Of a stretch of DNA of 64,000 nt, positions 1 through 55,953 are shown one piece after another; positions within the stretch are counted from its first letter, which is position 1, and every line of letters starts with the position of its first letter. This stretch comes from Pseudomonadota bacterium. GTDB lineage: Bacteria; SZUA-182; DTGQ01. The notes beneath the pieces were generated by a model that was not told where the DNA came from, did no database searches, and saw nothing but the letters and a program-made list of their open reading frames with translations. The position numbers and the translations under genes were made by a program. The stretch is from NCBI GenBank assembly GCA_030625085.1, contig DAOURK010000003.1:20198-84197 (forward strand), in the 5' to 3' direction.

Positions 1-3000
1 CGATTGAAAATTGATTTTTTTATAATCACAGCCATGCCGACAATACGGTCATGGACAAAATTTTTTCCTTGATGTTCCTTGCTCCATCCGGCAGCAAATG
101 TCTGGTATGCCTCAAGGGTATCATATCCAGACTGCATAGCCTGGGGGCCGCTTACATTGTTTGAACGTGGCCCTACAATTCCTATGTCGGGAGCAGATTC
201 AATTTGAGTGATAAAATTTTTAAGCCAGCCATCATGCACCAGGACGTCATTGCAGACACCGACACAATATTTTCCTCGTGCAAGTGAGAAAACATAATTG
301 GCGTTTGCCTCTACGACCCGGTTCTGATAATATCTGATGACACGGGTATGGGGATGAAAAGCGCTAACAGATTCAAAATACTCAAACGTGCCGTCTGTTG
401 AGCCATTGTCCATAAGCAACAATTCATACGGGCCCTCGGTGTAATGCAGGATGCTCTCAACACACTTCCTCGTGTACTGTAGCTGGTTATATGCCCCAAC
501 AATAATACTGGCATTAATCTTTTCGCTGTCTTCCCGGCCAATCGATGGCAAAGCTGCATCATCAGCCGAAAGATCTCCCGCGGAACTTGATGAAGCTAAT
601 TGTACAAAAGGTGACGGTGTGACCTGCGGCAGAGGCGAGGCAACAGCGTTAAATCCGATGTGCTTAAATATATCAACAAGCCTGTGTGTCCACGTGTGCT
701 CGGCAAGTGTTCGCTCATATCCGCGCCGGGCAATTTCTTCCCGTTCACCTTCATGGGCAAGATAATACCTTGATTTGTCAATCAGTTCCTCTAATGAGGA
801 GGCAATTACCACCTCCTTGTCAGGTTCATAGTACTCTTCAAGGTTGTCCACAGGAGTTGTGACTAAAAATCCATGACATCCGGGCACTTCAAAATTTCGC
901 CTTCTTATTGGCTGCGTGGTGATGGCGGATGAATTACCGAGATTAAGATTGATCCTGGATTGATTAAAAATCCTCACCATATCATAAAAGGGGATATACG
1001 AGTCTTCATTCCAACCGGCCCCGAATACATCAACAGGTAAACCGCTTTGTCTTATCTTCTCAATAAGTTCTAAACGATTGCCCTTTCCCGCGCCGACAAA
1101 GCTTACGTCCCTTGCCCCGGGAGCCGGTGTCGGCTGGTAGGTGAACGGGTTGAAGGCCCACTGGCTCTTGATGATTTTTGGGCCGAAACCGGCTCCGTGA
1201 TATTTGCCGGCGGCTTTGTGTGAGGTCGTGATGATATGGTCGGCACAGGTCGCCCATAGTAGTGCGTAATCATCAAAGCGCAGATGGTCATCATTCATCC
1301 AGATGATTGTTTGTGTGTCAGTGTGATCAGTTATAGATTTTAAGCTTTCATGAAGAATATCAGCCTGCAGATCGGAAGGACTGTACAAGAGCAAATCAGG
1401 CTGTTCTTGGCGGACGATCTCCACCAGGCGGTCCGACATGCCCGCAACCCCACGCTGCTGAGCCTCCGTGGCATAATCAAAAAATTGCACCTCTACGTTC
1501 TCAAAGTGGTGCAGAGCATTAAATATATTCCACCACCCGTAGTCATATCCTCTTCGCGCATTGCCGGAGGAAAATTTGACGCCTGCAGCCAATACCTTTA
1601 TTGACGGTTTCTTTCCGATCAGGAAGGACTTATGGTCTCGCTCTGCAGCATCGACAGGCCTCCGTGCATTTGAGTCCAGTCGCTCATTGATGATTTTTCC
1701 GTTTCCCGGCACGGGCGGCTTTGCTTTCGATAAATGCTTCCAGGTCCACATCACTGGCACGCTTATGAACTTCCAGTTCCTTGCCGTAGGTGGAACGGCT
1801 TTCCCTTTGGTCCATGTCTTGTCGCCGGCAAATAACATCTCCGGCGATTTTGATGAAGCTGCGGCGCACAGTGCCGCCAGTGAATCATAGAAGGGGAATG
1901 ATGAATATTTTCGCAGATTTCCACCAGTGACCCATGCGTCAATGGCAGCAACATGCCGCTCGTAATCTTTATATGACATGCACCGAAGGTACTTGTCTAG
2001 TTCCCCGAGGTTGTCAAATTGCCGGAAATCAATAAAACAATTTTCAGGAATATACTTCTCGATGTTTGAGGCGCCGAGATAAATCGGGATTGTCCTGGTT
2101 TCAAAGCAATCGAGGATTTTTTCGGTAATATAGCCGGCAGAGAGGACCGGATGATTGGTGTTTTCAAAACAGAGGTTGTATCGATATTGCTTCTGCACAG
2201 ATAATTTTCGGCCTTCCGGGATCGCACCGCGGTAATTGGACAGGGGGAAAGGCGGTGTGCCGTATACATCGAAGGGGATGTCCGAGTTTTTGGAAAACCA
2301 CTCTGCAACCTCAATGCGCTTTGAATAGAGCTCGCCGGGAACATGGGACCGCTTGTTGCCGCTGATCATGCAGATGGCATTCTTGCGGCATGGCAGAGGA
2401 TAAAGCAATTCGCGCTGACTTTGCCGATCCGTTACCGGTTCCTCTTTTAATCCGGCGCGGGGGAAGAGTATTTTATGGAATTTATTGTCCCGCCCAATCA
2501 GCGCATCAAATAAACCAAATACATGGTCAAAGTGTTTCCAGATACCCTCATCAAATTCACCCGGCAGCACAACAGCCGGCTCCAGCATGAGCAAGATGTT
2601 TAAACCCGGGAGCCTGCCTCTGTAACTGAAGGCATTGTGATATACATAATGATCACACCCCTCTATTGGAAAACAAGACCAAATAATCGAGACATTCCCG
2701 CGATAAAAGGCCTTAATATCATTCTGAGGCAAATGTCCGTAAACAATATTTATGGTGAGCTTTTTTTCACCACCTGCATGCGGGAGTACAGTCCGCAAAT
2801 TATACTTCAGTTCAAGACTGGCAAGATCCTCTCGTATACGGCCATCAAGAGTAGAGCAGAATTCTTTGCTGACGAAAATACCATTTGTGCCATTATCAAA
2901 TACCAGGATATAATCATGCTGCTGTAAAAACTTTATGATATCGTCGCCCCCCACATTAATCTCCACAATTATCAATGCCGGTCGAAAGCGAGCCCAGTCA

Positions 3001-4148
3001 TTGCTTTCCAGTACGGCAAGATCATACCCTTCTGCATCAACGGACATAAAATCAATCGTTATCCCCCCAAGGTGCGATTCAAAGATGTCAACTAATCTTA
3101 CAACAGGAGTTGGTTCTTCTGAGACTAAGGTTGCGCCATAAAGTTTGCCCGCCTGAAGGGCGGCCTGCTTATTGAAGGAAGAGAGGGTATCTGCCGACAT
3201 CCGATAAAATGTCATGGTCCCCGGTGCGGGGCCAACGCCAACCTTCAGGTTGATATCACGATCTCTCTTTGCGCAGAGTCCGGCATGAAGGTTCGGTTCC
3301 GGTTCAACATTAATACCCCGCCAACCCCTGCCATAAAACAGCTTGGTGTTGCTGAAAATATCGGGGTCATTTGCTCCGACGTCCACATAAAAACCATCAC
3401 GCCTATGGGAGAACAAGGCATCAATAACTAAATCCTCCCTGTATTGACTATATGTTGCCAAAGATGAGTTTGGCCCTATTTTGGCAACCAACAGCTCATT
3501 TTCCAAAACGAATTCAATATCATCTAATGCGTGCCCCCCCTTCACCCGCCAGCGAACATCCATCTCCCAAGAATCCTCAGAAGGAGTTACCGGATCGATC
3601 CATAAGGCATCATATTTTTTCGATAAAAGCTGATTAAAATCTTTTAATTTACCTGGCGGTATCCCAAGATATCTTGTAGGTGTGTCATCGGGCTCGACTT
3701 CGCATTGAATTTCACGAATCTTCCCCTTTTGAATCAACTCAGTGAGTGTTTTTAGTACTGTCAGATCTATGCCCTGCAAGTCTGTTATCAACGTATCAAT
3801 TTCCTGAATATTGTTACTGATACAAAAATCATAAAGATTTATTGTAGGTACTTTTATCTTTTTTTGCGCAGTAAGCAAACCACTTTTCATATGGCCAAAC
3901 TCAGGATTTGGGCTCCCGAGAGAAGAAGCCGCAGTCCAATTCGTTGTAATAGTAAACTCAACTTCTTCCCCGCTCTTTTCCATCAATGCACCATAAATAA
4001 ATTTGACATTGAGGTCATTTTGATAAAATTTTTCGGCTTGTTCAATTTTATCAGGATTGGCATCAAAACCATAACACAGGTCATAATACGGCCTGATACG
4101 ATTAAAATTAACCAAATTATGAATTCCGCAATAAAATAATGTCTTCAT
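1..4148 (-). CDS. Giant multidomain glycosyltransferase/methyltransferase, partial at the window edge (divergent FkbM-like, FkbM methyltransferase, GT10 fucosyltransferase-like, CgeB-like glycosyltransferase, GT2)
   Basis: Manual minus-strand translation from ATG at 4148 has no stop codon to position 1 (1382 codons). Motifs: GFYVDVGANDPDIFSNTKLFYGRGWRGINVEPEP (FkbM); YNLCFENTNHPVLSAGYITEKILDCFETRTIPIYLGASNIEKYIPENCFIDFR (GT10-like); SFVGAGKGNRLELIEKIRQ and RRNFEVPGCHGFLVTTPVDNLEEYYEPDKEVV (CgeB-like); NASIIVGAYNQLQYTRKCVESILHY...LLMDNGSTDGT (GT2). Missing from the ORF track, apparently because it has no stop inside the window. Confidence 0.9.
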   Translation of the reverse strand, partial: MKTLFYCGIHNLVNFNRIRPYYDLCYGFDANPDKIEQAEKFYQNDLNVKFIYGALMEKSGEEVEFTITTNWTAASSLGSPNPEFGHMKSGLLTAQKKIKVPTINLYDFCISNNIQEIDTLITDLQGIDLTVLKTLTELIQKGKIREIQCEVEPDDTPTRYLGIPPGKLKDFNQLLSKKYDALWIDPVTPSEDSWEMDVRWRVKGGHALDDIEFVLENELLVAKIGPNSSLATYSQYREDLVIDALFSHRRDGFYVDVGANDPDIFSNTKLFYGRGWRGINVEPEPNLHAGLCAKRDRDINLKVGVGPAPGTMTFYRMSADTLSSFNKQAALQAGKLYGATLVSEEPTPVVRLVDIFESHLGGITIDFMSVDAEGYDLAVLESNDWARFRPALIIVEINVGGDDIIKFLQQHDYILVFDNGTNGIFVSKEFCSTLDGRIREDLASLELKYNLRTVLPHAGGEKKLTINIVYGHLPQNDIKAFYRGNVSIIWSCFPIEGCDHYVYHNAFSYRGRLPGLNILLMLEPAVVLPGEFDEGIWKHFDHVFGLFDALIGRDNKFHKILFPRAGLKEEPVTDRQSQRELLYPLPCRKNAICMISGNKRSHVPGELYSKRIEVAEWFSKNSDIPFDVYGTPPFPLSNYRGAIPEGRKLSVQKQYRYNLCFENTNHPVLSAGYITEKILDCFETRTIPIYLGASNIEKYIPENCFIDFRQFDNLGELDKYLRCMSYKDYERHVAAIDAWVTGGNLRKYSSFPFYDSLAALCAAASSKSPEMLFAGDKTWTKGKAVPPTARNWKFISVPVMWTWKHLSKAKPPVPGNGKIINERLDSNARRPVDAAERDHKSFLIGKKPSIKVLAAGVKFSSGNARRGYDYGWWNIFNALHHFENVEVQFFDYATEAQQRGVAGMSDRLVEIVRQEQPDLLLYSPSDLQADILHESLKSITDHTDTQTIIWMNDDHLRFDDYALLWATCADHIITTSHKAAGKYHGAGFGPKIIKSQWAFNPFTYQPTPAPGARDVSFVGAGKGNRLELIEKIRQSGLPVDVFGAGWNEDSYIPFYDMVRIFNQSRINLNLGNSSAITTQPIRRRNFEVPGCHGFLVTTPVDNLEEYYEPDKEVVIASSLEELIDKSRYYLAHEGEREEIARRGYERTLAEHTWTHRLVDIFKHIGFNAVASPLPQVTPSPFVQLASSSSAGDLSADDAALPSIGREDSEKINASIIVGAYNQLQYTRKCVESILHYTEGPYELLLMDNGSTDGTFEYFESVSAFHPHTRVIRYYQNRVVEANANYVFSLARGKYCVGVCNDVLVHDGWLKNFITQIESAPDIGIVGPRSNNVSGPQAMQSGYDTLEAYQTFAAGWSKEHQGKNFVHDRIVGMAVIIKKSIFN

Positions 4149-4262: not shown

Positions 4263-4286
4263 GTAGCGCAGGGCTAAAGCCCTGCG
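4263..4286. repeat. REP-like palindrome GTAGCGCAGGGCTAAAGCCCTGCG
   Basis: Perfect CGCAGGGCT-AA-AGCCCTGCG stem; same family as copies at 25.5, 44.9, 53.0 and 55.9 kb. Confidence 0.85.
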
Positions 4287-4434: not shown

Positions 4435-4809
4435 TTATGCCGGGCCCCCCAGACCGGCGGCAAGGTTAAGATTAATGTTGATGATCGCTTGCAGTTTTTC
4501 AGGGGCCGGGTAAGTCATAGCTTCAAAAATACGCCCGTCAATAAATATGCTCAGGTTGAGTATGTCCTCTTTCAGTTTTTGAGGGAGTGGATTATCGGGC
4601 TTTATCAGCTCTGATTGAAAGAGACTCCATATCTTCTGGTTATATTTAAGCGCTTCATCCAATTTTGTATTTCGGTCTTCATCATCCCAGTTGTTTTGGC
4701 AATGCTTTAGTTTTAAAGCCGCCTTGGTGAGAACCGACGACTCTAATTCACGTCCGGTCATGGTAATCTTTTGAGTGGTTTTATATGCTTCTAATTGAGC
4801 TGAGTGCAT
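4435..4809 (-). CDS. flaF: Flagellar biosynthesis regulator FlaF
   Basis: 124 aa, FlaF-like (MHSAQLEAYKTTQKITMTGRELESSVLTKAALKL...NQKIWSLFQSEL); adjacent to a flagellin; GGAG upstream of the ATG. Confidence 0.8.
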   Translation of the reverse strand: MHSAQLEAYKTTQKITMTGRELESSVLTKAALKLKHCQNNWDDEDRNTKLDEALKYNQKIWSLFQSELIKPDNPLPQKLKEDILNLSIFIDGRIFEAMTYPAPEKLQAIININLNLAAGLGGPA

Positions 4810-5144: not shown

Positions 5145-5990
5145 TTATCTCAATAATGCTGTTAATTGTGACTGCTTTTCCGTTATGCCCCTGATTACTT
5201 CTATAGTCAGGGCCTGTCTCAGTTCCACGCTCTTGATCTGCGCGGCAACCTCGTTCATGTCGGCATTTTTAATCTTTTCCGCTCGATTTCTATGAAAATT
5301 AGCTGTCCTGGTATTATGTGCCTGCCAACGGGCAATGCCGAACGCGTCAAATGCCAGTCCGGCGCGTTTTTGTTCGAGAGTATCCTTTGCCGTCCGAAGA
5401 TTGGCGGCGGCATCGGCGATCTCGGCATCGGTTGGCTCCTCCGGCAGTTCCGGAATATCCAGGCCCTCGGGCCCCGTATGGACTTGTCGGCTATGGATGG
5501 TTTTCCTGACGCCGTTTTCGCCGACCATTACCTCCCAATCGCCTGCGCCGGGAACAACAGAAGGGTCCGCCATGATTTTTTTCGCATCTTCTTCCGGGGG
5601 GGGGATGGTCAACTGGTCGATTTGTTTCCGGAAGGCGCTAAAACCCTTCAATAATTCAGCCCTTTCCGGGCTGTCCGGAGGGAAGGGGGGATAATTTTTT
5701 ATAATCCTGTCCAATTGACTTTTCATCTTTTCAAGATAATCGTCGATTGTGCCCATTGTTGTATCCGCTATCCTGATATTCATGGCAACCATGTTAATAC
5801 CGGAGTTTATAGCCTGGAGACGGTTAAAAGCCGAATGACTGTTGCTCGCCGCTGCCCATGCGGAAGGATTGTCTTTGGATGAGTTGATTTTTTTCCCGGT
5901 GCTCAGCCTTTGGGTCAGTGAATCCATTGTCTTGTTGAGACCTTTAAGATTGAAGAGAGCCTGATTTATCCCAATCTTAATGCTTGGCAT
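5145..5990 (-). CDS. Minor/atypical flagellin with a proline-rich central region
   Basis: Flagellin N-domain (LTQRLSTGKKINSSKDNPSAWAAASNSHS) and C-terminal D0-like helix (LRQALTIEVIRGITEKQSQLTALLR). Start moved from 6020 to ATG 5990, preceded by AGGAGA. Confidence 0.8.
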   Translation of the reverse strand: MPSIKIGINQALFNLKGLNKTMDSLTQRLSTGKKINSSKDNPSAWAAASNSHSAFNRLQAINSGINMVAMNIRIADTTMGTIDDYLEKMKSQLDRIIKNYPPFPPDSPERAELLKGFSAFRKQIDQLTIPPPEEDAKKIMADPSVVPGAGDWEVMVGENGVRKTIHSRQVHTGPEGLDIPELPEEPTDAEIADAAANLRTAKDTLEQKRAGLAFDAFGIARWQAHNTRTANFHRNRAEKIKNADMNEVAAQIKSVELRQALTIEVIRGITEKQSQLTALLR

Positions 5991-6213
5991 ATCTTCTCCT
6001 TTCATGAAGAGTATACACATGAAGACATAACATTATTATCTATCTTCACACCCTAATTTCATGCCAACCAAAGCAACACTTATATATATTATCGGAATAT
6101 TTAAAAATATCTTTAAGGTATTTTTAAAAATGCAGATATGCTGCAAGATTATCCATAATCTTTTGGGGTCGAAATAGGTATATATGCGGCTCCAGGTGGC
6201 TTGAGGCACAATT

Positions 6214-6507: not shown

Positions 6508-7617
6508 ATGGCTAACAACATCACATTATCCACCGGAATGCGCTCCAACTTAATGAGCCTTCAGTCGACATTAGATCTTCTTAACCAAACACAGAATCGC
6601 CTGTCAACAGGGTTAAAAGTCAATACCGCTCTTGATGATCCGACCGCCTACTTTACAGCCCTGACACTTACAACACGTGCCAGTAACATTAATTCACTCA
6701 AGGACGAAATGGGCCAGGCTATTCAAACAATAAAAGCCGCGGACATAGGCATCACAGCAATTAGCGACTTAGTCGATCAGGCAAAAGGTATTGCGAAGAA
6801 AGCGCAGGCAGTTGTGATCGTCAACGACAAACAGTACGTTACTTTAAACACCGTCGCGGCAGATGATGTAATTACCATCGGGGGCGCAATTCTTACGGCA
6901 GTTGCTGGGACTGCGACTGCCACCCAATTCAGCATCGACGGTACCGATGCGGAGGACGCGGCAGCCTTAGCGGCCGCAATAAACAGTGCAAGTATGTCAG
7001 TAGGGGGTGGGGCCGTAACCGCCGATAATGAGGGTGTCAAGGTATACATCGAGGCTGCGGGCGTCGATTTAACAACCGGCAGTATTGTAGCCGCTGGTAC
7101 AATGGTCGAATCAGATATAATATCTGTCGCCAATGAAATGGCCACCCTTCAAGGCTCTTACAACGAGATGTTGGACCAGATTGATCATATGGTAATAGAC
7201 GCGGGCTACAAGGGTAAAAACCTTCTCAACAGTGACAATCTTGAGGTAAACTTCGAAGGGGATCGTAAGATTACTATTGAGGGGTTCTCGGCAAGGGTTG
7301 CCGGTTTAGAGCTCACAGACGCTGACTGGACCTCGACCGCCGATCAAGACGGCAATCTCTCTGAGATCGAAGATGCTCTTACCACGCTGGGGGGCGAGGC
7401 ATCAAAGATGGCCTCGAATCTGGGTATCATCACCACACGTGAAAAATTTTCAACTAACATAGTAAACCTCCTTACCGAAGGCGCCGATAAACTTACACTC
7501 GCCGACATGAACGAAGAAGGAGCGAACATGTTGGCGCTCCAAACCAAACAGGCCCTTGCGGCAACAGCGCTGAGCATGTCTGCTCAGGCGGCCCAGTCGG
7601 TGTTGAGGTTGTTCTGA
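6508..7617 (+). CDS. fliC: Flagellin
   Basis: 369 aa; TLDLLNQTQNRLSTGLKVNTALDDPTAYFTALTLTTRA N-terminus and ANMLALQTKQALAATALSMSAQAAQSVLRLF C-terminus; RBS AAAAGGAG. Confidence 0.93.
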   Translation: MANNITLSTGMRSNLMSLQSTLDLLNQTQNRLSTGLKVNTALDDPTAYFTALTLTTRASNINSLKDEMGQAIQTIKAADIGITAISDLVDQAKGIAKKAQAVVIVNDKQYVTLNTVAADDVITIGGAILTAVAGTATATQFSIDGTDAEDAAALAAAINSASMSVGGGAVTADNEGVKVYIEAAGVDLTTGSIVAAGTMVESDIISVANEMATLQGSYNEMLDQIDHMVIDAGYKGKNLLNSDNLEVNFEGDRKITIEGFSARVAGLELTDADWTSTADQDGNLSEIEDALTTLGGEASKMASNLGIITTREKFSTNIVNLLTEGADKLTLADMNEEGANMLALQTKQALAATALSMSAQAAQSVLRLF

Positions 7618-7860: not shown

Positions 7861-8280
7861 ATGTCATTGAAAATATCATTAAAACCGCACGAAAGATTAA
7901 TTATCGGCGGCGCTGTAATTGTAAATGCAAAGACCGGGTGTGATCTGATCGTTGAAAATAATGTCCCCATACTCCGCGAAAAAGATATCATGGCCGTAAA
8001 GGGGGCCGATTCACCATGCCGGAGGATTTATTTTGTCATACAGCTTATGTATGTGGATGGTAAAAATCTGACTGAACATCATAAAACCTACTGGGAATTG
8101 GTAAAGGACGTGATGGGTGCGGCCCCGAGCACCCGCGGATTAATTATTGAGATCAGCGAATATGTCCTGCACAACAAGTATTATCAGGCGCTGAAACTAA
8201 CCCGCGGATTGATCGATTACGAGCAGGAGGCCGTCAGTAAGGCCGGCAAGGCGGCGGCAAGATCGCCGGGCTCTGTTTAA
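7861..8280 (+). CDS. flbT: Flagellin mRNA regulator FlbT
   Basis: 139 aa; MSLKISLKPHERLIIGGAVIVNA...CRRIYFVIQLMYVDG...YYQALKLTRGLIDYEQ, FlbT-like. Confidence 0.85.
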   Translation: MSLKISLKPHERLIIGGAVIVNAKTGCDLIVENNVPILREKDIMAVKGADSPCRRIYFVIQLMYVDGKNLTEHHKTYWELVKDVMGAAPSTRGLIIEISEYVLHNKYYQALKLTRGLIDYEQEAVSKAGKAAARSPGSV

Positions 8281-11119
8281 GGCATTCATCCAGGAGCCTT
8301 CCGGTCTCATCATTTCCTTTCCCGCTTTCGATAAGAGCTTCAAGCGCCCGTACGGCAGGACCTGTTTTCCCGAGAGCAACCAACCTTTTGCAGAGTATGT
8401 GCAGGGTATCAGCAATGATGAAGCCTTTTTTGAAGAGCGCCTTATAGAATATAACCGCTTTGTCTTTTTGTCCAGCGATGCCGTATGCCGCGGCAAGGAG
8501 CAATGATGCGGGAGGATATTCGACGGCCCGCTCAAGCAGAGGCTCAAGTTCTGAAATGACTTTCTTATAATCTCCGACGAGAAGCTCGCTGTAGGTATAA
8601 TTCAGCAGGGCCTCCTTCATGGTCGGATCAATCTCCATCGCTCTTTTCGAGGCAAGCAGGGCCTTTTCGTATTGTTCAGTCTGCAGACAGCAATATCCCA
8701 GGTCGAAGAAAAATCTCGCGGCAGGTTTCTCTCCGGTAAGATCTATCGCCCTTTTCCATAACGCAATGGCCTCCTCAAACCTTTTAAGCTCCTGTGCCTG
8801 GATTGCAAGCTCAGAAAGTGACTTGACGTCATCCGGGCGCTCTTTGAGCTTCTTTCTGCCCAGAAGATAGTATCTTTCTCCCTTTGAAATGAGTTTGCCG
8901 GTGCTCATTTTGCCGTAGTGGTGGACAATAATCCGGCACTGTTTGATCTTGATGCCGGCCGTGATTATCGATGACTCAACAGTTTCATGCACATGCCCTT
9001 CAAACCGTATGCGGCCGTCATTGGGGAAAAGCCTTACCTTCACACTGGGGAACCAGCCCGTGCCGGTCTCCTCAAGCGGGTATTCGCCTTTATTGGGGAC
9101 CCATCCCAACGACTTGATACCGCGGACATAATTCCTCGTGGCGATGTTATAGGCGGCGGGGTTGGAACACTTTTTCAGGATAATGCTTTTCAGCAGAGGA
9201 TAGTCCCGGGAAGATATCACCTCATCAGCATCGAGGACGAATATCCAGTCCCCTGAAGCCTTGCTGAGAGAGAAGTTGCGGGCCCCGGAAAAATCATCCG
9301 TCCAGGGAAGCCCGAATACCCCGGCGCCGAAGGCCGCGGCAATATCTCTTGTTCTGTCCGCAGAGCCGGTATCAACCACTATCATCTCATCGGCCACGGG
9401 TTGAGCGCTCATGAGGCATTTTGCTATATGGTTTTCTTCATTCTTTACGATCATACAGACAGACAGGGTCCCGGACTTTTTTGATTTGTCTGTGCCCTCC
9501 CTGGCGCCTATTCTTTTCCTGATCTCAAGCGCGGCGGCCAGCATGCCGTCGTCTGTGCCGAAGGAAATCATGGCCCGTTCGATCTCCTGCATGGCGATTT
9601 CATTTTTGCCCTGCCGTATGAGGATATCTATCAAAAGAAAGGCGATTCTTTTATTCAAGGGATAAGATGCCTTTGCCTCTCGGAACCTTTGTTCGGCCCT
9701 TTCGAGGTCACCCACTGAGGTGATTGCGGAGTGATAGATGGATACAATGTCCGCGATCGTGGGGGACAGGATAAATCCTTTTTCCAGCAGGTTTACGGCA
9801 TCTTCCCTGTCCCCTTGATCCCATTTCAGGATGCCGAGATTTGTATATGGTTCTCCATAACCGGGATCGCATTTGACTGCCTTTCTAAAATGATCGTCTG
9901 CGCTGTTTTTGTCCCCCTTTTTATAGGCCAATATCCCTTTTAGATTGAGGGCCGATGCGCAACCCGCATTTAACGATAGAGCTTGATCGGCATGATCGCC
10001 CGCTTCAGCATAAAGCCCCATGCCTTCTTTGCCATAACCTGCCAACGCATGCCGCCTCGCCTCTTTCTTTCCCTCTTCGGGCATGGACTTCAGGGCATCC
10101 ATGGCATCATTGAAGCGTTTAGAGTCGATCAACATCTCGGCCAGACGATAGTAAATTGCCTTATCATCCGGGGAGTATTTTATGCCGTCGATAATCGTGG
10201 GAATAGCCTGATCAATCTGCTGCCGCTGGTAAAATTTCTCGGCCGACTCAAGTTTGTTTAAGACGGCAAGTTTTTTCCCGTGTGGACTTGAAACATCTAT
10301 GTTGCGCCATTTTTCATCAAAAATTTTCTTGTCCTTCCCTATAGATGAATTGCAATGTATTTTGTTTCCGATAAAACTTACGCTGCCGTAATGATGGATA
10401 AATACATCCCCGGCAATAAAGTTCCTGTATCCCTCCAAGGTCGCTCTGAGACAGAAATCATCGTCCTCGAAGTTGCCCGAGCCAAAACTCTCGTCAAGCA
10501 AGCCGATTTTTTCCGCCAGTTCACGCTTAAAAAGCATGCAAAATCCGGCTATTTTCCTGGAAGGTATACGACGGTATCGATTTATTTCTCTGAATGTGCG
10601 AGCATATTCATCCAGGAGGTTCATTGAGGCATAATTGGCGTTTGCTACTTTCTGTGGTCCGCTGATGTTATTAGTCATGGGGCCAACAATGCCGGCATCA
10701 GAAGTATTGCTCAAACATTCAAGCATTCCTGAGAGCCATCCCTCTGAAACAACCACGTTATTATTCAAAAGGAGGATGTACTCACCTGATGATTTAAGTA
10801 TCCCTTGGTTGCAACCCTTAGCAAAACCAAGGTTCTTCGTGTTCTCAATTAATCGGTAATTAGAATTTTCCTTGATAATCCGCCTCAACCACTTGACCGT
10901 TCCATCGGTAGACCCATTGTCTACAAACACAATTTGATGCGGTTCGGGGGTGTGCCTTCTAATGCTTTTAATGCATTCCTTCGTATATTTAAGCTGGTTG
11001 AAGGTGAGAATTGCCATGGAGACAAGCCCGTTGACAGGTCCCTTTTCCTCAAATAAAACTTCAGGCATTGCTCCCATTATTTTTTTCTCCGTGGCGCCTC
11101 CGGCGCAGCCGATTTTCAA
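8234..11119 (-). CDS. GT2 glycosyltransferase - TPR - GT2 - TPR protein
   Basis: 961 aa; two GT2 cores (AILTFNQLKYTKECIKSIRRHTPEPHQIVFVDNGSTDGT and LSVCMIVKNEENHIAKCL...IVVDTGSADRT) separated and followed by TPR repeats. Confidence 0.9.
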   Translation of the reverse strand: MKIGCAGGATEKKIMGAMPEVLFEEKGPVNGLVSMAILTFNQLKYTKECIKSIRRHTPEPHQIVFVDNGSTDGTVKWLRRIIKENSNYRLIENTKNLGFAKGCNQGILKSSGEYILLLNNNVVVSEGWLSGMLECLSNTSDAGIVGPMTNNISGPQKVANANYASMNLLDEYARTFREINRYRRIPSRKIAGFCMLFKRELAEKIGLLDESFGSGNFEDDDFCLRATLEGYRNFIAGDVFIHHYGSVSFIGNKIHCNSSIGKDKKIFDEKWRNIDVSSPHGKKLAVLNKLESAEKFYQRQQIDQAIPTIIDGIKYSPDDKAIYYRLAEMLIDSKRFNDAMDALKSMPEEGKKEARRHALAGYGKEGMGLYAEAGDHADQALSLNAGCASALNLKGILAYKKGDKNSADDHFRKAVKCDPGYGEPYTNLGILKWDQGDREDAVNLLEKGFILSPTIADIVSIYHSAITSVGDLERAEQRFREAKASYPLNKRIAFLLIDILIRQGKNEIAMQEIERAMISFGTDDGMLAAALEIRKRIGAREGTDKSKKSGTLSVCMIVKNEENHIAKCLMSAQPVADEMIVVDTGSADRTRDIAAAFGAGVFGLPWTDDFSGARNFSLSKASGDWIFVLDADEVISSRDYPLLKSIILKKCSNPAAYNIATRNYVRGIKSLGWVPNKGEYPLEETGTGWFPSVKVRLFPNDGRIRFEGHVHETVESSIITAGIKIKQCRIIVHHYGKMSTGKLISKGERYYLLGRKKLKERPDDVKSLSELAIQAQELKRFEEAIALWKRAIDLTGEKPAARFFFDLGYCCLQTEQYEKALLASKRAMEIDPTMKEALLNYTYSELLVGDYKKVISELEPLLERAVEYPPASLLLAAAYGIAGQKDKAVIFYKALFKKGFIIADTLHILCKRLVALGKTGPAVRALEALIESGKGNDETGRLLDECLKQSPAILPPPCRPY

Positions 11120-25450: not shown

Positions 25451-25518
25451 ACAAGGGCTTCAGCCTTGCAAGAAATATTTTTTGTGGGGGATTCGGCAGG
25501 GCTAAAGCCCTGCGCTAC
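25451..25518. repeat. REP-like palindrome pair
   Basis: acaagggcttcagccttgcaa (25451-25471) and gcagggctaaagccctgcgctac (25496-25518). Confidence 0.8.
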
Positions 25519-44912: not shown

Positions 44913-44967
44913 GTAGTGCAGGGTTTTAGCCCTGCTCTTTTGGCAGGCTTTAGCCCTTGCGCTGCAC
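44913..44967. repeat. REP-like palindrome pair
   Basis: gtagtgcagggttttagccctgc and ggcaggctttagcccttgcgctgcac. Confidence 0.8.
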
Positions 44968-52962: not shown

Positions 52963-52990
52963 GTAGCGAAGGGCTAAAGCCCTGCGCTAC
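52963..52990. repeat. REP-like palindrome
   Basis: gtagcgaagggctaaagccctgcgctac, 13-bp stem with one mismatch. Confidence 0.85.
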
Positions 52991-55850: not shown

Positions 55851-55953
55851 GTAGTGCAGGGCTTTAGCCTTGCAAAAAAGAAGAAAAGATAGCATAAAAG
55901 GTTAAAGAAAACGCCTTTTAATATTTTATGTAGCGCAGGGCTTTAGCCCTGCC
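55851..55953. repeat. REP-like palindrome pair
   Basis: gtagtgcagggctttagccttgc (55851-55873) and gtagcgcagggctttagccctgcc (55930-55953). Confidence 0.85.

Follow-up and report, generated by a model that had tools for sequence, protein, structure and literature searches.

The subject of this report is a giant modular open reading frame (ORF), P1, and a second ORF, P2, which lie on either side of a group of flagellin genes in a 64,000-nucleotide stretch of bacterial DNA. The whole stretch, hereafter the window, is G000:C95:20198-84197, from the 84-kb contig C95 of a 4.94-Mb draft assembly in 247 contigs. P1 is read on the minus strand from an ATG at position 4148 and stays open to window base 3, so that positions 1..4148 hold 1382 of its 2491 codons. 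When the contig is followed leftward, the single frame ends at a stop at C95:16870, 3328 bp left of the window. The original prediction for this DNA had described a hidden minus-strand frame of at least 1382 codons from that ATG, absent from the ORF track; the frame is real, and the track missed it because it runs off the edge before reaching a stop codon. At this base composition, 1382 codons would stay open by chance with a probability of about 1e-32, and the remaining five frames of the 7.5-kb P1 stretch carry 68-190 stops each. Composition by codon position is coding-like throughout, with the lowest GC at position 2 or the expected third-position pattern in every module, and an AAGGAG-like ribosome-binding site stands about 15 nt ahead of the ATG. 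P1 is a genuine single protein of 2491 amino acids (aa).

The order of regions in P1 is FkbM-like, FkbM, GT10, CgeB-like glycosyltransferase (GT), GT2, a conserved block without family assignment, tetratricopeptide repeats (TPR), GT2 and TPR, with borders refined from profiles and from pairwise alignments with the relatives L047 and L048 described below. The divergent FkbM-like methyltransferase module (residues 1-221; 3486..4148, minus strand) is the second of two stretches matching PF05050 and TIGR01444. It is 72.5% identical to its counterpart in L047, where PF05050 matches ORF residues 610-741 (E 1.2e-10). The canonical FkbM methyltransferase module (residues 222-461; 2766..3485, minus) matches PF05050 at 256-414. 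P1 scores 109.2 bits against PF05050 (cut-off 22.7) over the two stretches and 80.9 bits against TIGR01444 (cut-off 37.7), and has the motifs VDVGAN and DAEGYD; by family, the FkbM modules are probably sugar O-methylating enzymes. The GT10 fucosyltransferase-like module (residues 462-813; 1710..2765, minus) scores 55.9 bits against PF00852 (cut-off 23.9) and aligns to the Helicobacter pylori fucosyltransferase FucT (PDB 2nzw, E 2.9e-15), including the donor-site block NLCFEN...Y.TEKI..PIY.G. Next come the CgeB-like GT-B module (Glyco_trans_1_2, residues 876-1195; 564..1523, minus; PF13524, 120 bits) and the first GT2 module, which begins at residue 1196 and occupies 1..563 on the minus strand plus 231 bases past the edge. 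Its domain spans about residues 1205-1440, with the DNGS and ND motifs inside the window and DDD and HH past the edge, so the acidic and HH motifs are retained.

Past the window edge lie the block (1461-1690), TPR (1680-1785), a second GT2 (1786-2030) and further TPR (2031-2300 and 2301-2491). The second GT2 has lost the first His of its HH motif, a metal-binding-type His. The block, about 220 aa between GT2 and TPR, is 53% identical to its L047 counterpart (L047:11673-12362) and matched no family; its profile showed no significant similarity to the GT2 modules (0.4% probability), and we make no claim that it is a decayed GT2. AlphaFold models of P1 residues 1-1200, built with three sequences, and of the L047 counterpart of the block had mean pLDDT of 28.8 and 31.7, too low to use. 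The profile searches support the modules: Pfam, NCBIfam and structure-database alignment bear out all five assignments of the original prediction (FkbM-like, FkbM, GT10-like, CgeB-like and GT2) and their fusion, to which the regions past the edge, not visible to it, are now added. Neither P1 nor P2 matched a MAF profile at E <= 0.001.

Upstream of P1 on the minus strand are flaF, encoding a flagellin secretion factor (4435..4809; PF07309, 111.7 bits), and flagellin A (5145..6020; 291 aa; PF00669, 43.6 bits), so that Pfam confirms the placement of P1 behind a flagellin and flaF that had been proposed. Flagellin B (6508..7617; 369 aa; PF00669 and PF00700) and the flagellin translation regulator gene flbT (7861..8280; PF07378, 138.8 bits) are divergent, on the plus strand. 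P2 follows on the minus strand (8234..11119), recognized by its ORF and by profiles as 961 aa, start codon uncertain, in the order GT2-TPR-GT2-TPR. Its first GT2 (10370..11032, minus), together with the TPR region after it, is a paralogue (50% identity) of the second GT2-TPR block of P1. Flagellin A matched the Flagellin_N profile and not Flagellin_C; it is 30% identical to flagellin B and 65% to a flagellin from the same family of genomes. Flagellin B is related to flagellins of L047, L048 and a same-family genome, G002 (contig C180).

To the left of P1 are the CDP-glucose pathway genes RfbF, RfbG and RfbH, and genes for a NeuB-like synthase, a thiamine diphosphate (ThDP) enzyme, radical S-adenosylmethionine (SAM) proteins and a GT2. 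One contig thus carries two flagellins, flaF, flbT, P1, P2 and a CDP-sugar cluster, the combination of flagellin, GT and nucleotide-sugar genes that marks a flagellin glycosylation island. The ThDP enzyme is of acetolactate-synthase type and, with a short-chain dehydrogenase/reductase, adjoins RfbF/RfbG/RfbH at C95:7079-9766 (L002), left of the window; we take this set to resemble branched-chain dideoxysugar pathways of the yersiniose type.

The last GT2 of P2 (8855..9472, minus), which is followed by TPR, is a homologue of Listeria GmaR (PDB 22ao; E 1.8e-26 by phmmer, 1.3e-38 by profile) and, more distantly, of SunS; the PDB matches are confined to the GT domain of GmaR. GmaR attaches GlcNAc to flagellin, which its TPR domain probably recognises (PMC9638930). 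A GmaR-like core at E <= 1e-30 occurs in 58 of 386 sampled genomes, and several of the ORFs that contain it have 1000-2482 aa. Flagellins are present in each of 31 genomes examined, a set made up almost wholly of core carriers (29). In 14 of these 29, against about one expected by chance, core and flagellin gene are no more than 10 kb apart; the genomes counted are drafts in which many cores are on short contigs. Modules fused to the core or encoded beside it include GT4, GT9, CgeB-like and sulfotransferase. From this homology and linkage, the last GT2 of P2 is likely the flagellin-attaching transferase.

Two informative relatives of P1 came from a scan in which each bacterial and archaeal species was represented by one genome. 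L047, from a lake delta-proteobacterium metagenome-assembled genome (MAG), encodes a 3089-aa ORF with the P1 modules in the same order at 40-72% identity. It matches P1 residues 1-221 at 72% and, after three residues, restarts at P1 residue 462 (P1 221/462 = L047 818/822); because the alignment resumes there, the canonical FkbM module is missing from L047 at one clean joint. Identities beyond the joint are 58% for GT10, 63% for the CgeB-like module, 66% for GT2, 53% for the block, 57% for TPR and 40% for GT2-TPR. The L047 chain ends in a GmaR-like GT2-TPR, which in the window belongs to P2. L048 is shorter (1398 aa, GT10-GT2-TPR-GmaR-like GT2-TPR), its GT10 is 47% identical to that of P1, and FkbM is a separate, upstream gene. 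All three fused GT10 genes, of the window, L047 and L048, adjoin flaF, flbT and flagellin. L047 also has an N-terminal stretch of half a thousand residues not in P1 (L047:6213-8000), with one FkbM-like segment, one other methyltransferase-like segment and TPR-like repeats.

The second GT2-TPR block of P1 is nearer to P2 (50%) than to L047 (40%), whereas the preceding parts shared with L047 are 53-72% identical. These identities are best accounted for if P1 arose by the joining of a front part like that of L047 to a duplicate of the P2 block nearby. Modules, as these alignments indicate, are gained, lost and duplicated as blocks. GT10 was not found in the other nine genomes compared within the phylum, and among the 386 sampled genomes the only GT10 in a long chain is the window's own. 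A plasmid search returned no fusion, just partial matches below 60% identity; those listed cover about 15% and are to FkbM or GT2. In G002, free-standing TPR ORFs lie immediately upstream of flagellin A and flaF (L044:157-3512), one of them 79% identical to the P1 C-terminus; the modules of P2 are two separate ORFs on another contig.

The host genomes are distant. HemL identity to the window genome is 58% for L047 and 54% for L048, compared with 57-59% for genomes of other phyla, 61-63% within the order or class and 76% within the family. The L047 genome is thus probably of another class or phylum than the window, and the three genomes probably of different phyla. FlbT is present in only 2 of 10 phylum genomes compared and 3 of the 386 sampled, and its identity to the window protein is 57% for L047 and 61% for G002. 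The FlbT of L047 is thus nearly as close as that of G002, although HemL is distant and FlbT rare. These identity comparisons suggest that distant bacteria may exchange the flagellin-flbT-flaF-synthase cassette. The third FlbT genome, G316, carries a 2237-aa TPR-rich ORF with GT9 segments (L119:11731-18444) beside flagellin-flbT-flaF, with a GT41 ORF adjoining; G316 is unrelated to the window genome.

Judging from sequence, we think it reasonably likely that P1 and P2 form a cytoplasmic flagellin-glycan synthase pair. TPR blocks would hold flagellin, and the GmaR-like GT2 of P2 would put the first sugar on its Ser/Thr residues. The GT2, CgeB-like and GT10 modules of P1 would then extend the glycan chain, with GT10 probably using a GDP-linked deoxysugar such as fucose; the two FkbM modules would O-methylate the glycan, and FlaF would pass flagellin to secretion. 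A GDP-fucose donor is plausible because a homologue of GDP-fucose synthase is encoded in the window genome and another adjoins the L047 gene, although the donor may differ, since L048 has GDP-heptose-type genes beside its GT10. The flagellin-glycan role put forward in the original prediction is strengthened by the fused relative, the linkage of core and flagellin, the co-occurrence with the rare flbT and flaF, and the nucleotide-sugar genes on the P1 contig, and stays a conditional assignment. Its picture of one polypeptide that assembles and methylates the glycan fits L047 better than the window, because here the likely flagellin-attaching module is in P2. A second correction is that one of the GT2 copies in P1 seems to be partly degenerate.

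Several observations weigh against a synthase pair. That degenerate copy is one; P1 also lacks the GmaR-like GT2 module, its own GT2 modules being of another type, and its sequence gives no readable substrate. The gap between P1 and flaF is 286 bp and contains a dispersed repeat, so that P1 may be transcribed apart from flaF. The other half of the core-bearing genomes have no flagellin within 10 kb of the core, partly on draft contigs, and the CDP-sugar cluster beside P1 could serve a surface polysaccharide.

This last point leads to the most serious competitor, that P1 builds an O-antigen, capsule or exopolysaccharide and is a chance neighbor of the flagellin genes. FkbM, GT10 and CgeB-like modules are frequent in polysaccharide loci, and the left side of C95, with RfbF, RfbG, RfbH, NeuB-like synthase, radical SAM proteins and a separate GT2, looks like an O-antigen locus. 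We nevertheless hold it to be improbable, at perhaps a third of the weight given to the synthase pair: in three genomes, which probably belong to different phyla, the synthase has stayed next to flaF, flbT and flagellin; relatives of P1 are fused to a GmaR-like flagellin GT-TPR; and the same sugar pathways serve flagellin glycosylation islands (PMC13317340). A less probable alternative still makes P1 mainly a scaffold or regulator, whose TPR and decayed GT modules would regulate the supply of flagellin by binding it, FlaF or FlbT, with catalysis secondary. P1 is rich in TPR and contains, besides the degenerate GT2, a conserved block without a family, and GmaR itself is bifunctional, acting also as an antirepressor (PMC9638930). 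Yet the FkbM, GT10, CgeB-like and first GT2 modules keep their family motifs and are 58-72% identical between distant genomes, which together suggest selected activity. We give almost no credence to the fusion being an assembly error or frameshift artefact, and reject a chimera: the assembly is a draft and G002 has the P2 modules as two ORFs, but the coding signal is continuous, the uninterrupted frame lies well within the contig, and an independent MAG (L047) encodes these modules, likewise in one frame and with their order unchanged.

A synthase pair would share features with known flagellin-modifying systems. The GT2-then-TPR end of P2, beside flagellin, resembles GmaR, the flagellin O-GlcNAc transferase of Listeria monocytogenes (PDB 22ao; PMC9638930); GmaR, however, has a single GT and an antirepressor end in its one chain of 637 aa, and P1/P2 add GT2, GT10, CgeB-like and FkbM modules. 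In Caulobacter, TPR binding by FlmG directs cytoplasmic flagellin glycosylation in a FlaF/FlbT system (PMC7591256). P1 and P2 may work like FlmG in TPR-guided glycosylation with FlaF and FlbT, but FlmG has 596 aa, an N-terminal TPR, a single C-terminal GT-B and no methyltransferase, whereas P1/P2 have another module order and modules from other GT families. In Enterobacteriaceae and Clostridium, flagellin glycosylation islands include FkbM methyltransferases (PMC4875605), and such islands carry GT2-TPR candidate flagellin transferases with 3,6-dideoxyhexose or GDP-fucose genes near flagellin (PMC13317340). In descriptions of those islands every enzyme has its own gene, whereas here they are joined in one 2491-aa chain. 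Giant TPR-GT ORFs at flagellin loci in seven genomes (G100, G368, G056, G263, G126, G063 and G316) likewise repeat GT and TPR, but use GT4, GT9, GT41 neighbors, CgeB-like or repeated GmaR-like modules, and no giant TPR-GT ORF among those scanned contains FkbM or GT10. Flagellin enzymes that combine GT with TPR are already known, as are unlinked FkbM genes in islands, and the fused, module-swapped polypeptide is a novel form of these; no published account of fusion into one chain was found, most subscription literature not being searchable.

A further possibility, offered tentatively, is that such loci are modular assembly lines of covalently linked GT and methyltransferase modules. The glycan would then be specified by which modules are present and in what order; gain, loss and duplication would reshuffle them, and the line would travel from phylum to phylum in company with flagellin, flbT and flaF. 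Usually a flagellin glycan has to be deduced from genes that lie scattered; should one chain combine flagellin binding, attachment, extension and methylation, its module list would predict the glycan, much as polyketide assembly lines do for their products. L047, L048 and the window, with FkbM, CgeB-like and first GT2 modules present or absent, are a natural module-swap series for testing a module-to-glycan rule.

The dispersed repeat between flaF and P1 is a palindrome, GCAGGGCTTTAGCCCTGC. With up to two mismatches it has 6 sites in the window, where 0 are expected: 4268-4285 (the copy between flaF and P1), 25496-25513, 44918-44935, 52968-52985, 55856-55873 and 55935-55952. The genome holds 102 exact copies, often in opposed pairs 24-50 bp apart, an arrangement like that of repetitive extragenic palindromes and bacterial interspersed mosaic elements (REP/BIME) or the ends of miniature inverted-repeat transposable elements (MITEs).

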